Positions 4,322 to 42,648 of a stretch of 64,000 nt of DNA are shown in pieces. Numbering within the stretch: position 1 is the first letter of the stretch; each line of letters begins with the position of its first letter. The notes below the pieces were generated by a model. It worked only from the letters and a program-made list of their open reading frames with translations, made no database searches and was not told the DNA's origin. A program made the position numbers and the translations under genes. This DNA is from Vibrio aerogenes (GTDB lineage: Bacteria; Pseudomonadota; Gammaproteobacteria; Enterobacterales; Vibrionaceae), in contig NZ_AP024862.1 in assembly GCF_024346755.1 (NCBI RefSeq), positions 248,001 through 312,000 of the forward strand. The letters are read 5' to 3'.

Positions 4322-5827
4322 ATGACACAACCCATTTTAGCGCTGCATCAGATTGAAAAAGCTTTTCCGGGAGTGAAAGCGCTTGATCAGGCCGGTTTAA
4401 GTGTATACCCGGGACGGGTGATGGCACTGATGGGAGAAAATGGCGCAGGTAAATCAACCTTGATGAAAGTGCTGACCGGTATTTATACCAAAGATGCCGG
4501 TGAGATTACCTATCAGGGGAAATCTGCTGATTTTAAAGGCCCGAAAGATTCTCAGGAGGCCGGTATTTCTATTATTCATCAGGAGTTGAATCTGATTCCT
4601 GAACTGACAATTGCTGAGAATATTTTTCTCGGGCGTGAGAAAACCAATGCGTTCGGGCGGATCTTGTGGCCACAGATGTATGCCGAAGCAGACAAATTGC
4701 TGAAGCGTTTAAATGTACGTCACAGTTCAAAGAAATTGTTGGGTGATCTGAGTCTGGGCGAGCAGCAGATGGTGGAAATAGCCAAGGCACTTTCGTTTGA
4801 TTCAAAAGTTATCATTATGGATGAACCCACGGATGCATTGACGGATACGGAAACCGAGTCTTTATTTAGTGTGATTCGCGAGTTGCGATCACAAGGCTGC
4901 GGGATTGTATATATTTCTCATCGCCTGAAAGAGATTTTTGAAATTTGTGATGATGTGACCGTGTTGCGTGACGGAAAGTTTATCGGGCAGAAAGCGGTGT
5001 CAGCGTTGGATGAAGATCAACTGATTGAGATGATGGTTGGCCGGAAACTGGACGAACAGTATCCAAGGATCGATGCGGCTGCCGGGGACGTCAGTCTGGA
5101 AGTTATCGGATTAACCGGGTCTGGTGTCCGTGATGTTAGTTTTCAGCTGCATAAAGGTGAAATTCTGGGAGTTTCCGGGCTGATGGGCGCAGGCCGGACT
5201 GAGCTGATGAAGGTCATCTATGGCGCATTGCCCAGTGAAAAAGGCGTGATCAATCTCGAAGGCAAAACGATTAATCCAGTCAGTCCGCAGGACGGCCTGG
5301 CCAACGGCATTGCTTATATTTCAGAAGATCGCAAGGGTGATGGGTTAGTGCTCGGACTTTCGGTCAAAGAGAATATGTCTTTGTGTGCGCTGAATCATCT
5401 CACTCAGGGATGGCAAATCCGCCATCAGGATGAGAAAACTGCCGTTGAAGACTTCATCCGGCTGTTCAATATTAAAACACCGTCAAAAGATCAGATTATC
5501 GGCAATTTGTCGGGCGGAAATCAGCAAAAAGTCGCGATTGCCAAAGGGTTGATGACCCGGCCAAAAGTGTTGATTCTGGACGAGCCAACCCGTGGGGTGG
5601 ATGTCGGTGCCAAAAAAGAAATCTATCAGTTAATTAATCAATTTAAGTCTGAAGGCATGAGTATTATTTTGGTGTCTTCGGAGATGCCTGAGGTCCTCGG
5701 GATGAGTGATCGCATTCTTGTGATGCATGAGGGACGTATCAGCGGTGTATTTGATGCAAAAGATGCAAATCAGGAAAACCTGCTGGCTTGTGCAGTCGGC
5801 AAGCAGTATCACGGGGAGGCAGCATGA
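4322..5827 (+). CDS. rbsA: Ribose ABC transporter ATPase RbsA
   Basis: Cytoplasmic ATPase of the high-affinity ribose importer, 501 residues with two fused ATP-binding domains. Domain 1: Walker [10 protein letters not shown], signature LSLGEQQ, Walker [14 protein letters not shown]. Domain 2 has a degenerate P-loop region ([13 protein letters not shown]) but a good signature LSGGNQQK and Walker [15 protein letters not shown], the usual RbsA/MglA asymmetry. Note Asp-Ala (DAL) where most relatives have SAL in the first D-loop. Its stop overlaps the rbsC start (ATGA), so translation is coupled. Confidence 0.95.
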
Positions 5828-39837: not shown

Positions 39838-40279
39838 AGAGTCATCGATATGGTCAAGCCTGGTAATGAGGTAATTTCCCTGTGAACTATCACCTTAAAG
39901 TCTGTACTGATTTTCAACGCAGAATGTCGCTTCCCGGAAATCAGTGCCATGCTCAGAAACCAGTCAGTTCTCGCTGAACATGCATCCTGGGTCTCTTGGG
40001 CATAGGTATAAAAGCGTCAGTCTTGCCGGGCAGATTAAACGCCGGGTGAAAACAGGACTTGAATTTTGTGGTTGCCGGATTAGTCAGCTGAATTTATCCC
40101 AACGTGTTGAGCATCACGTTTTCTTCATGGCGAAGCACCTGACAAGCTGTGCTTCCATCTGGGTATATATCAGGACCAGACAATGACGCCCTTCAGGAGC
40201 GCCGCTTCAGGTTCATGTCTTCATCTGATAGCTGAACCTTGCATCCTGAGGGCGTTTGCGTATATAGAGATGTGATTCA
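39838..40279. repeat. Repeat-bearing intergenic region on left of levansucrase cassette
   Basis: About 440 bases with no gene. 39906-39926 matches, inverted, the 21 bases at 42606-42626 (19 of 21). 39972-40005 (GCTGAACATGCATCC...TTGGGCATA) is a degenerate copy of the dispersed palindromic repeat, related to 42431-42470. A further remnant, GCTGAACCTTGCATCCTGAGG, lies at about 40231-40251. Confidence 0.6.
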
Positions 40280-40636
40280 TTAAGAAATTTTTTTTGATAT
40301 AAAACGATTGATCCATGAACTGATTTTTTTTACTCCCATAAATCCAATGAATCCACCAATTGATACAGTAAACTGATTTGATATTCCTGTCAGTTCTATC
40401 ACAGATAAAGATATTAATGTCAAACAACTACACATTGTACCTTCTAATATAATATCTGATAAGTTTCCGCCAGAATAAATAATTCTTAAGCTTGCCAGAA
40501 AAAATGAAGCAGACAGACTTAAAAAGACTGAATCACTTTTAAAAAAGGCTTTTATCAACCCGATGTGTCCTTTTATATCAAGAGTGTTTAATATATCCAG
40601 GATACGGCTTATATCCAGAGAACTATTCATATCCAT
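40280..40636 (-). CDS. Lambda-family phage holin
   Basis: 118 residues. From residue 48 to the end it aligns without gaps to lambda holin S: A-LR--Y-GG, then TMC, then a GFIGFMGVKKIS stretch against VFIGYIGTDSIG, and the C-terminal RFISKK against RFAAKK. Three membrane segments are visible (about 36-55, 66-83, 88-103), with a basic tail. The start reads Met-Asp-Met, recalling the Met-Lys-Met dual start of lambda S/S'. Strong ribosome site GAGAGGA. It lies 46 bases after the levansucrase stop, on the same strand, with no endolysin or spanin nearby. Holins make lethal or secretory holes in the inner membrane. Confidence 0.85.
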   Translation of the reverse strand: MDMNSSLDISRILDILNTLDIKGHIGLIKAFFKSDSVFLSLSASFFLASLRIIYSGGNLSDIILEGTMCSCLTLISLSVIELTGISNQFTVSIGGFIGFMGVKKISSWINRFISKKIS

Positions 40637-40682
40637 AGATTCCTCTCAAATAAGGTGGTGCACGAATGCACCACCAGATTCT

Positions 40683-41942
40683 TTATTGAATGAAAATGTT
40701 TTCCATTGGAGGAATAAAACCGTAGTCATATGTTTTAACGACAAAAGTTCTGTTCCCTTCAATTTTAATCTGTACTGTTGGGGCTTCAGTTCCTCCGATA
40801 CGATAGTCTCCGTCATATTCACTCTCTTCAGGTGCAGGGACACTATCAATAAAGGATGTGACCAGCCCATTCGGCATCACACAGTGTGAGTAGGTCTGGA
40901 AGGGTTGGGAAGATGGATTGCCCAGTACCAGACCGGAACCATTTAAGGGTTCATAAGGACCGAAGAGAGAATCACTGACAAACCCATAGACACCATCCGG
41001 CCCGGTCAGACCATCGGCATATGTATACTGGTGGCTGATTGTGAACAGATAATATTTACCATCTTTAAAGACGAAGTGCGGGCGCTCTGTCTGATCATTT
41101 ACACCGACGGCTGTAATCAGCGGTGGCAATAGCTGCCAGCTGTCTCCCTGCTCATCTTTGGCGACCGCAAGGCCAATACATCCAGCCTGATAGCGGGCAC
41201 CACCGACTTCTTCATATCCCGGTGGCAGGTTTCCTAAATCTTCAGAGGTAATTCGATGGGTTCCTCGTTCACCTGCAACATTGCCTTCAAAAACCATATA
41301 GAGTTTACCGTCACCGGGGTTGATAAACGGACTTGGATCTCTGAAATTCCAGTAAATATTCTGTTCTTCTGTCTGATAGTAAAAACCATCAGCTGAAAAG
41401 AGTTTTGTCACCGAGTGAAAGTCAGATAATTTGATGCCATCACTGGTTTCAGTAATACAGCCCCTGACTTTAGCGATAGCCGCGCCCGGTGAAACGCAGG
41501 TATAATAGAGCTCGATATCACCTTCTTCATTAATCAGAACCGGTGTTCCTGCCCATTCCCTTGCTGTTGGTGAAACGCCCTCAGCCATGACCCGTCCACC
41601 GTAAATCCAGCTCTGACCATCTTTTGCATACCAATAACATATTCTTGCCCGTCCGTGACGTGCGTTCCAGTCTGAAGTAATATCGTAACTGCCGTCTTTG
41701 TTTTTATAGACATCAGGCTCTCTGGTTGCTGTTAATGTAAAAATGACTGACCATCCATTCACTGAAACGATGGTGCCATCTAATTTTTTCAGCGGCATTG
41801 TATCCCAGATAAACAAGGTCTCATCCATCACCGGGAATTTAAGATCAACGATTGGCTGTGTTGTTGTTGGATCATCGAATTTAACTTTCAGTGCGTCAGC
41901 GCGAGACCATGCAGTTGTGATAACTTTATCTTGTAATAACAT
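40683..41942 (-). CDS. Levansucrase (GH68), no signal peptide
   Basis: Splits sucrose and polymerises fructose into levan or fructooligosaccharides outside the cell. 419 residues, GH68. Nucleophile Asp47 in [15 protein letters not shown]; transition-state stabiliser Asp202 in the RDPSPF motif; acid/base Glu286 in QTERPHF. These positions are almost the same as in Erwinia amylovora levansucrase (Asp46, Asp203, Glu287 as I recall). The protein begins [20 protein letters not shown] with no Sec or Tat signal, as in the Erwinia and Zymomonas enzymes that are exported by unclear routes. AGAGG ribosome site. Followed by a holin gene; divergent from an Ogr-type activator. Confidence 0.93.
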
Positions 41943-41974
41943 AATTAAACCTCTTTTGTTTAAGGAGATTTAAT

Positions 41975-42015
41975 AAAACCATATTTATGTATGGTTCAAT
42001 AATAAATATGGTTTT
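41975..42015 (-). promoter_or_regulatory. 14-bp perfect dyad in levansucrase leader
   Basis: AAAACCATATTTAT (41975-41988) and ATAAATATGGTTTT (42002-42015), 13-base spacer, 33 bases before the levansucrase start. It could be a protein-binding dyad or a hairpin in the leader RNA. No U-tract follows on the minus strand, so it is not a plain terminator. Confidence 0.6.
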
Positions 42016-42027
42016 CACATATATCAC

Positions 42028-42054
42028 ACAACAAATTAAATACATCATTGTTGT
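42028..42054. promoter_or_regulatory. Second dyad between levansucrase and ogr-like gene
   Basis: ACAACAA (42028-42034) and TTGTTGT (42048-42054), 13-base spacer, in the divergent promoter region. The wide spacing suggests a binding site. It is the reverse arrangement of the TGT-N12-ACA pattern remembered for P2 Ogr, for which I found no copy here. Confidence 0.45.
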
Positions 42055-42212
42055 ATCAGAAATGATAGATTAAAAATAAGCGGAAATTATTTGAATAATA
42101 AATGATATTCAGAAGTTGTTTAGCATCGTTTATATATAAAAATAACAATTAATCAGGAACATTCTACCTCTGTAACTTATTATTATTAGGTAATTTAAAT
42201 TAGGTGAAAATC

Positions 42213-42407
42213 ATGATGCGTTGTCCGATCTGTAATAAATCAGCACATACAAGAACCAGTCGGTATCTGACAAAAACAACAAAGGAATCTTATTATCAAT
42301 GTCAAAATATATTATGTTCATGCACATTTAAAACAATAGAAAGTCTGGATAAAATTATTTGTTCTCCTTTAAATGAAGCAGAAAATAAAGAGGCATGCCA
42401 TGTTTGA
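42213..42407 (+). CDS. Ogr/Delta-type zinc-finger activator (P2-like phage origin)
   Basis: 64 residues from ATG 42213 (TTAGGTGA upstream). The start MMRCPICNKSAHTRTSRYLT, then YYQCQNILCSCTF, match phage P2 Ogr (CPLC, AHARTSRY, YHQCQNVNC). Zinc ligands Cys4, Cys7, Cys30 and Cys35 give the family spacing C-x2-C-x22-C-x4-C exactly. Ogr proteins recruit RNA polymerase to phage late promoters. No phage structural genes are near; it faces the levansucrase-holin unit across 270 bases, so that unit is its likely target. The coding sequence is AT-rich compared with the neighbours. Confidence 0.9.
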   Translation: MMRCPICNKSAHTRTSRYLTKTTKESYYQCQNILCSCTFKTIESLDKIICSPLNEAENKEACHV

Positions 42408-42430
42408 GTACCACACTATCATGAACGTGA

Positions 42431-42470
42431 TATACCCGCTGAACATGCATCTTGAGGTCACTGGGTATAC
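42431..42470. repeat. Dispersed palindromic repeat, copy E
   Basis: TATACCC (42431-42437) and GGGTATA (42463-42469) enclose GCTGAACATGCATCTTGAGGT. Related to copies at 25039, 27360, 39972 and 42853. Confidence 0.65.
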
Positions 42471-42565
42471 TGACTGTCGTGATTGACTCCGGAGGCAATT
42501 AAAGCCAGGCTGAATAATCCGGGTATCAACTCAGTCAAGCTGAAGATTCGGTATTCAGTGAAACT

Positions 42566-42648
42566 TGTCCGGGCTTGAAAAAGGACACTGATTTGAGACC
42601 ATGATCGTTCTGTGTTGAAAATCAGTCATGCCGGCGCAAGCCCGGACA
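42566..42648. repeat. Inverted repeat right of levansucrase cassette
   Basis: TGTCCGGGCTTG (42566-42577) and CAAGCCCGGACA (42637-42648) are perfect 12-bp arms. Inside them, 42606-42626 is the inverted counterpart of 39906-39926. TTGTCCGGGC also occurs at 39167-39176. Confidence 0.65.

Follow-up and report, generated by a model that had tools for sequence, protein, structure and literature searches.

A stretch of 64,000 nucleotides of the Vibrio aerogenes genome (positions 248,001 to 312,000 of NZ_AP024862.1, contig 2 of a three-contig genome of 5.37 Mb; the whole stretch is called the window below, and positions refer to it) carries a levansucrase gene, lsc, followed on the same strand by a gene for a lambda S-type holin and preceded by a divergent gene for a phage-type zinc-finger activator of the Ogr family. 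Comparison with other genomes reveals that these three genes form a recurrent unit, with a promoter of fixed architecture and a structured lsc-holin junction. Our favored reading, which we regard as moderately probable, is that a bacterial levansucrase is run here in the manner of a phage late gene and that its exit from the cell is gated by the holin. To our knowledge, the route by which signal-less levansucrases of Gram-negative bacteria leave the cell is unsolved, and the window cassette constitutes a small and testable candidate for it.

The lsc gene (40683–41942, minus strand) encodes a protein of 419 residues that covers the whole of the Glyco_hydro_68 profile PF02435 (5–424 of 424, E-value 1.4e-152) and scores about 700 bits against levansucrases whose structures have been solved (4d47, 6frw, 6rv5). 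Residues D47, D202 and E286, which we take to be the catalytic acids, are invariant in the alignment and aligned with a solved relative. Simple hydropathy on the open frames, with no trained predictor, finds no hydrophobic stretch at the N-terminus of the protein; such a stretch precedes the GH68 domain in seven of eight long GH68 proteins of related genomes, the eighth (L008) being a short frame. Two PDB chains labeled 'Glutamate 5-kinase' (8qkw_A and 8qj5_A) also match the lsc protein at about 700 bits over nearly its full length, and this label looks wrong.

The holin gene (40280–40636, minus strand, 118 residues) starts 46 nucleotides after the lsc stop codon. Its product matches PF05106 (E-value 3.3e-20; 72.8 bits vs. 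a curated cut-off of 23.8) and the holin/anti-holin family phrog_126 (E-value 1.8e-21), and helices are placed at residues 35–55, 59–83 and 88–117 in a low-confidence AlphaFold2 model (mean pLDDT 66). The dual start M-K-M of holin and antiholin, seen in lambda, Fels-1 and PaD14E, is absent from the aligned cassette holins and from phage YeP1; it characterizes lambda S and does not extend to PF05106 as a whole. The cassette holin is under purifying selection, with dN/dS values of 0.03–0.25 in the five pairs out of ten with usable dS. On the opposite strand, the ogr-like gene (42213–42407, plus strand; a GTG start nine bases upstream is also possible) belongs to PF04606 (E-value 2.6e-19) and phrog_603 (E-value 1.4e-20), its product having the exact cysteine spacing C-x2-C-x22-C-x4-C of P2 Ogr, with which it shares 30 of 52 aligned residues (58%); its identity to the Ogr proteins from three further cassettes is 94, 80 and 75%. 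Profiles and alignments thus agree, for all three genes, with a first-pass annotation made from the sequence alone, which had described at these positions a GH68 levansucrase without signal peptide, a lambda S-type holin 46 nucleotides downstream on the same strand and a divergent activator of P2 Ogr type.

The whole genome contains one Ogr_Delta gene and one PF05106 gene, and its single PF00959 lysozyme gene lies on another contig than the cassette. We screened the surroundings against PHROGs using 41 window proteins between 3873 and 51628, that is 40 of the 49 larger open reading frames plus ogr, the two first and seven last frames being left out. Matches were obtained to 32 families at E<=1e-8, and descriptions are available for 25 of these. 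Among the described families the holin is the sole lysis protein, and capsid or head, tail, terminase and integrase families do not occur; within this scope the earlier statement that no lysin, spanin, terminase, capsid or integrase gene lies nearby is borne out, and phage structural genes expected beside a prophage remnant were not found.

Scanning with an alignment of lsc identified 110 named loci, the best 80 of which were used for neighbor profiles. Among these 80, 16 match the cassette-holin profile, 14 the ogr profile and 13 both. The holin-bearing loci span ten genera besides that of the window: Celerinatantimonas, Tatumella (four), Chromohalobacter, Acinetobacter (four loci), Halomonas smyrnensis (strain AAD6, L028, which carries the cassette), Phaseolibacter, Rahnella perminowiae (whose contig starts just before lsc, the ogr position being outside view), Erwinia piriflorinigrans, Hafnia and Pectobacterium betavasculorum. 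Whole-genome samples were examined as well; they share members among themselves and with the set of named loci. In the genus sample, GH68 is found in 7 of 227 genomes; both signal-less genes have ogr and holin in the same order as in the window, and five long GH68 genes, four of them with a hydrophobic N-terminal stretch, lack both over about 1.4 kb. GH68 occurs in 7 of the 394 genomes of the order sample, and the holin adjoins lsc in three of the seven, namely the window genome, G401 and G380, which carry all three genes; the short-type locus of G440 lies close to a contig end and is without a holin, and the remaining genes are long or partial. The corresponding numbers are 9 of 18 carriers among 295 genomes for the family of the Erwinia genome, 4 of 5 among 175 for Acinetobacter and 2 of 3 among 275 for the family of the Halomonas genome, and in a class-wide sample of 369 genomes GH68 occurs in the window genome alone.

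Conversely, we collected PF05106 genes from 19 genomes chosen for carrying such lsc loci, one of which (Arsenophonus) has no holin. Out of 21 genes, 19 stand beside lsc, and one of the other two adjoins a lysozyme gene; the pairing is therefore no by-product of many prophage holins. On two plasmids lsc is accompanied by a gene annotated as 'phage holin, lambda family', and on one of these by a 'late control protein B' too. On a Pantoea plasmid, ogr and lsc occur together with a divergent holin frame that is missing from the annotation (L098, 6236–6586, E-value 3.9e-7 with our own holin profile). This is the sole divergent holin found: six small or medium open reading frames near lsc in loci without a match belong to no Pfam holin family, and the hydropathy lists of holin-less lsc loci contain no clear candidate. 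Thus, the levansucrase-holin-ogr unit is recurrent and not a local accident, and the possibility raised in the first-pass annotation, that the holin occurs in this strain only and with random neighbors elsewhere, is contradicted by 16 of 80 loci and 19 of 21 genes.

The region upstream of lsc contains the dyad ATACAACA-N15-TGTTGTGT (42026–42056, minus strand), a candidate activator site, and, 55 nucleotides from its right half-site, the TTTTATTAA box (41970–41978, minus strand), a probable −10 region. In the form ACACAACA-N(12-25)-TGTTGTGT, with two mismatches allowed, the dyad precedes lsc in ten of 17 distinct ogr-bearing loci (14 promoters), and in four Tatumella genomes it precedes both tandem lsc copies; the full dyad is absent from all 54 Pseudomonas lsc genes. 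Its gap measures 12–15 nucleotides in four promoters, 19 in one and 23–25 in nine, i.e., the lengths fall mostly into two groups about one helical turn apart. The distance from the right half-site to a T[TC]TTAT box is exactly 55 nucleotides in 14 of 15 promoters from 11 loci, these being the ten dyad loci and one with a changed right arm, picked after the motif had been seen; when offsets from 40 to 70 were scanned, all others gave zero, save one occurrence at 58 that involves a repeated TGT. The pattern ACAACAN{12,27}TGTTGTGT has a single match in the 5.37 Mb genome, at lsc (a reversed control also has one, elsewhere), and 42 matches over 16 genomes vs. 13 for the reversed control, true palindromes being counted twice.

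In phage P2, Ogr acts at a TGT-N12-ACA site upstream of the promoter. Scanning for such a site ruled it out at the lsc promoter of the window, and the site on the Ogr side differs from that of P2 in both sequence and orientation. The lsc promoter appears to follow the logic of P2 late promoters and not their letters, with the difference that the gene controlled is a bacterial levansucrase, and we infer that the Ogr-type protein binds the dyad and turns on the lsc promoter. The earlier proposal that Ogr activates the unit has gained a fixed-spacing promoter site that accompanies the divergent Ogr-like gene in 11 of the 17 ogr-bearing loci. Two further observations concern these upstream regions. 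Between the dyad and the TTTTATTAA box of the window lies a palindrome, AAAACCATATTTAT / ATAAATATGGTTTT (41975–42015), a similar one being present in a second genome of the same genus (L002) and none being seen in the other upstream regions inspected. In Erwinia piriflorinigrans, where the lsc promoter has half-sites only, a full ACACAACA dyad precedes an Ogr-type frame (L103, 1675–1872) that does not share a contig with lsc.

The gap between lsc and the holin gene folds at −17.6 kcal/mol (z −3.4) into a hairpin with a 9-bp stem and a weak U tail (40654–40675, minus strand). We folded 15 of the 20 listed lsc-holin gaps against shuffles and found a stable hairpin in 13, with z values from −1.9 to −6.8, the weakest, from a Tatumella, being equaled by 13 of 200 shuffles; two Acinetobacter gaps of 29 nucleotides form no stable hairpin. 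The hairpin is conserved as a shape, its sequence differing among relatives. Because the U tail is short, it is probably a leaky terminator or attenuator that would hold the holin below the levansucrase. In Tatumella morbirosei (L020, around 5140–5490) the holin frame looks interrupted near a run of T.

Levansucrase is found next to holins in other arrangements as well. In Pectobacterium betavasculorum (L085) and at three further loci (L191–L193) the order is divergent repressor, Q-type antiterminator, holin and lsc. The Q gene belongs to PF03589; profiles were run on the repressor (CI/S24) and Q of L085 and on the Q of L192, the others being recognized by sequence. All four loci have one or two terminator-like sites between Q and the holin gene, which recalls the late control of lambda with its Q gene followed by terminators and then the holin. 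The overall number of such sites exceeds that in shuffles in L191 (5 vs. 0.9) and less clearly in L192 (3 vs. 1.1), and in L085 and L193 it is not above shuffles, so that it is the position which is consistent and not the number. In L192, lsc is closely followed by genes for another holin, a GH19-type endolysin and the only Rz-like spanin seen near lsc. In L194, finally, lsc lies between a lambda S-like holin and a phage lysozyme and is followed by tail genes, the whole being a phage remnant.

A midpoint-rooted tree of 31 holins, from which that of T. morbirosei was left out owing to its frame, places the Ogr-cassette holins on one side of a branch whose support (90/83) is below threshold. The clade of Q-type holins groups with a Yersinia phage (97/90) and the holin of L194 with lambda S (98/92); the placement of some long branches, above all that of Pantoea, is uncertain. 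These separate positions suggest that the union of levansucrase with phage late control and a holin arose more than once, a lambda-family holin apparently having become its neighbor at least three times. Of all the arguments for a functional link, this recurrence is the strongest. Viral sequences were searched as well: GH68 has no match in 50,697 phage records and none in a scan of viral contigs; the cassette holin has only distant relatives in phage records (72 records, all below 60% identity, those listed at about 31–40%) and no relative among 39 pattern stretches in viral contigs; and Ogr relatives in viral contigs reach 52–54% identity (eight loci).

These observations can be assembled into the following scheme. 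Binding of the Ogr-type protein to the dyad would switch on the lsc promoter and folded, signal-less levansucrase would accumulate in the cytoplasm, while the few transcripts read past the hairpin would yield little holin. Once past its threshold, the holin would open the inner membrane and levansucrase would leave the cytoplasm. An unrestrained holin is normally lethal, and exit would most likely coincide with the death of the releasing cell, probably in a subset of cells, levan then being made outside from sucrose for the survivors. The wall and outer membrane might be passed by diffusion, with the help of a host or prophage lysin from elsewhere, or through breakage of the wall by growing levan. 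Holin-dependent release of levansucrase appears likely to us from the general action of holins and by analogy with holin-linked secretion (PMC13284979, PMC9527704). The first-pass idea of a domesticated phage control and release module stands in outline, as one recurrent phage-style unit; its altruistic lysis was too specific. According to PMC13284979, lytic vs. non-lytic release is disputed even for known holin-linked systems.

Several points weigh against this scheme. No peptidoglycan hydrolase or spanin is described beside the cassette among the 41 window frames. Neither holin nor ogr profile matches any of the 54 Pseudomonas lsc loci, 10 of the 26 other named loci have no holin, and lsc also stands without it in the Arsenophonus loci, in one Acinetobacter genome and in 9 of the 18 carriers of the Erwinia family sample; the holin is therefore not needed everywhere. 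On an lsc tree that omits L001, L014, L016, L030 and L089 (duplicates, a poor match, a broken gene and a cut gene), nine changes are required for the label 'holin' and eight for 'ogr', and with phylogeny controlled the association of ogr with the holin does not reach significance (about 2.5 pairs in favor and 0 against; median p 0.25). At the promoter, four of the 17 ogr-bearing loci have a half-site only and three have none, the 55-nucleotide architecture is absent in six (offsets of 46, 33, 33 and 27, or no pair), and the TGT-N12-ACA site of P2 is missing from the lsc promoter and from 12 of 15 regions, one locus being counted twice. Last, LscB of Pseudomonas syringae, with no holin beside its gene, is reported as predominantly extracellular (PMC3973379).

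The holin might instead have a broader role in biofilms, where the opening of a few cells would set free DNA and cytoplasmic contents along with levan, and levansucrase would be one of many released proteins. Holins are unspecific, levan is a matrix polymer and co-regulation with a matrix enzyme would fit; against this, 19 of the 21 holins lie beside lsc, pointing to levansucrase in particular, and we hold the explanation to be unlikely. We give less credit again to a hitchhiking remnant, in which lsc was once cargo of temperate phages, and ogr, Q and the holin are left-over neighbors, at most regulators still in use. Regulators and holins indeed belong to phage-type families, lsc of L194 is still embedded in a phage remnant that includes lysozyme and tail genes, and many relatives lack the holin. 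But the holin is retained beside lsc in many genera at the low dN/dS given above, the junction keeps its structure while its sequence changes, the holins come from separate parts of the tree, no described phage structural gene surrounds the window cassette, and phage records and viral contigs contain no GH68. The least probable explanation is sugar-triggered lysis, in which the holin would admit levansucrase to the periplasm and levan formed from sucrose would burst the cell, the enzyme doing the job of an endolysin: lsc does follow the holin, as a lambda-type endolysin gene would, in L085 and L191–L193 and lies between holin and lysozyme in L194, and levansucrase with sucrose is toxic to many Gram-negatives (the basis of SacB counter-selection), but known levan producers among the carriers live with sucrose, and in L192 and L194 levansucrase would be superfluous in this role, an endolysin gene being present next to lsc.

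The proposed holin-gated exit of levansucrase resembles type 10 secretion (ChiWXYZ of Serratia, ChiH/ChiP/ChiA/ChiR of Salmonella and the system of Yersinia entomophaga) in that a phage-derived holin is linked to, and co-regulated with, an exported enzyme or toxin under a dedicated regulator (ChiR), and the feature of a holin gene beside the cargo gene is found in the window. On the other hand, the window cassette is without hydrolase or spanin, and its cargo is signal-less, whereas in the chitinase systems it is the hydrolase that has no signal peptide, the chitinase being exported through Sec (PMC13284979, PMC9527704). Since the searches for hydrolase and spanin in the window were negative, the cassette is to be classed as holin-linked release and not as a member of type 10 secretion; a peptidoglycan hydrolase gene is present beside lsc in L192 and L194.

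Another parallel is MaeB of Serratia, proposed as an additional cargo of the chitinase holin, a signal-less enzyme whose gene is linked to a holin and whose secretion falls in a holin mutant (PMC9527704); unlike levansucrase, with its evident role outside, MaeB has no known role outside the cell, and the same holin serves an endolysin. In the system of TcdE, the holin for clostridial large toxins, the holin gene stands beside the cargo genes with a dedicated regulator, the endolysin gene is lost or a remnant, and release is reported to depend on the holin (PMC9527704), although both holin dependence and lysis are disputed there (PMC13284979, PMC9527704); this system differs by its Gram-positive host, its toxin cargo and a sigma factor instead of Ogr or Q. 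Zymomonas mobilis, an Alphaproteobacterium, is compared here through published descriptions. Its ZliS is presumably a GH108 muramidase, an assignment for which our literature search gave no support. As an experimental hint, its accessory genes zliE and zliS reportedly activate levansucrase at the level of both expression and secretion (PMC3712917), and they are described as stimulating the production and secretion of this extracellular enzyme (PMC3712917, PMC8102297).

Levansucrase expression in P. syringae (lscB, lscC) is likewise linked to DNA of prophage type that includes a phage zinc-finger gene, with the differences that this gene is Com of Mu type instead of Ogr and that no holin adjoins lsc. 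Later work on LscR reportedly concerns the control of this levansucrase. The mention of phage-derived activators of P. syringae levansucrase genes in the first-pass annotation was right in kind, since PMC3899960 describes a promoter element associated with a prophage, together with a com gene, but a com stop mutant still formed levan. On plasmid pDC3000A of P. syringae (L099), a Com gene lies upstream of lsc and genes for a family-10 glycosylhydrolase and a GH25 (lysozyme-type) protein lie downstream; Com and the family-10 glycosylhydrolase recur at five other Pseudomonas lsc loci.

A wider proposition would be that phage lysis circuits have repeatedly taken up the levansucrase of Gram-negatives as a 'late gene', namely under Ogr, under CI/Q with the enzyme in the place of the endolysin, in a holin-lysozyme cassette and, in Pseudomonas, next to a Mu/Com-type element, and that phage-timed, holin-gated exit is general for this signal-less enzyme, making levansucrase the clearest candidate so far in Gram-negatives for a non-endolysin holin cargo with an outside job; this we advance tentatively, at slightly less than an even chance. 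For Gram-negatives, a 2022 review (PMC9527704) counts only endolysins as shown to be moved by a holin and treats Serratia MaeB as a weak further case. Judging from searches of open-access papers, the pairing of levansucrase with a holin does not seem to have been published. The cassette suggests that phage late-gene logic, with its fixed-spacing activator, antitermination and holin, was reused more than once for a public-good enzyme.

Some minor observations remain. Among the Arsenophonus loci (L021, L022, L030), L022 has lsc with ogr and no holin, and lsc of L030 is split into two frames. The genome G1703 of the Halomonas family (L228–L234) contains five or more diverged GH68 genes, of which some are arranged in tandem, and no holin match lies next to any of them. 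Around the window cassette, and outside it, a 19-bp repeat (39906–39924, plus strand) recurs as an inverted copy (42608–42626, minus strand). As a boundary of a mobile element or of the cassette it was ruled out, being a dispersed repeat with 19 matches in the genome at up to two mismatches; the ends of the interval delimited in the first-pass annotation coincide with it exactly.

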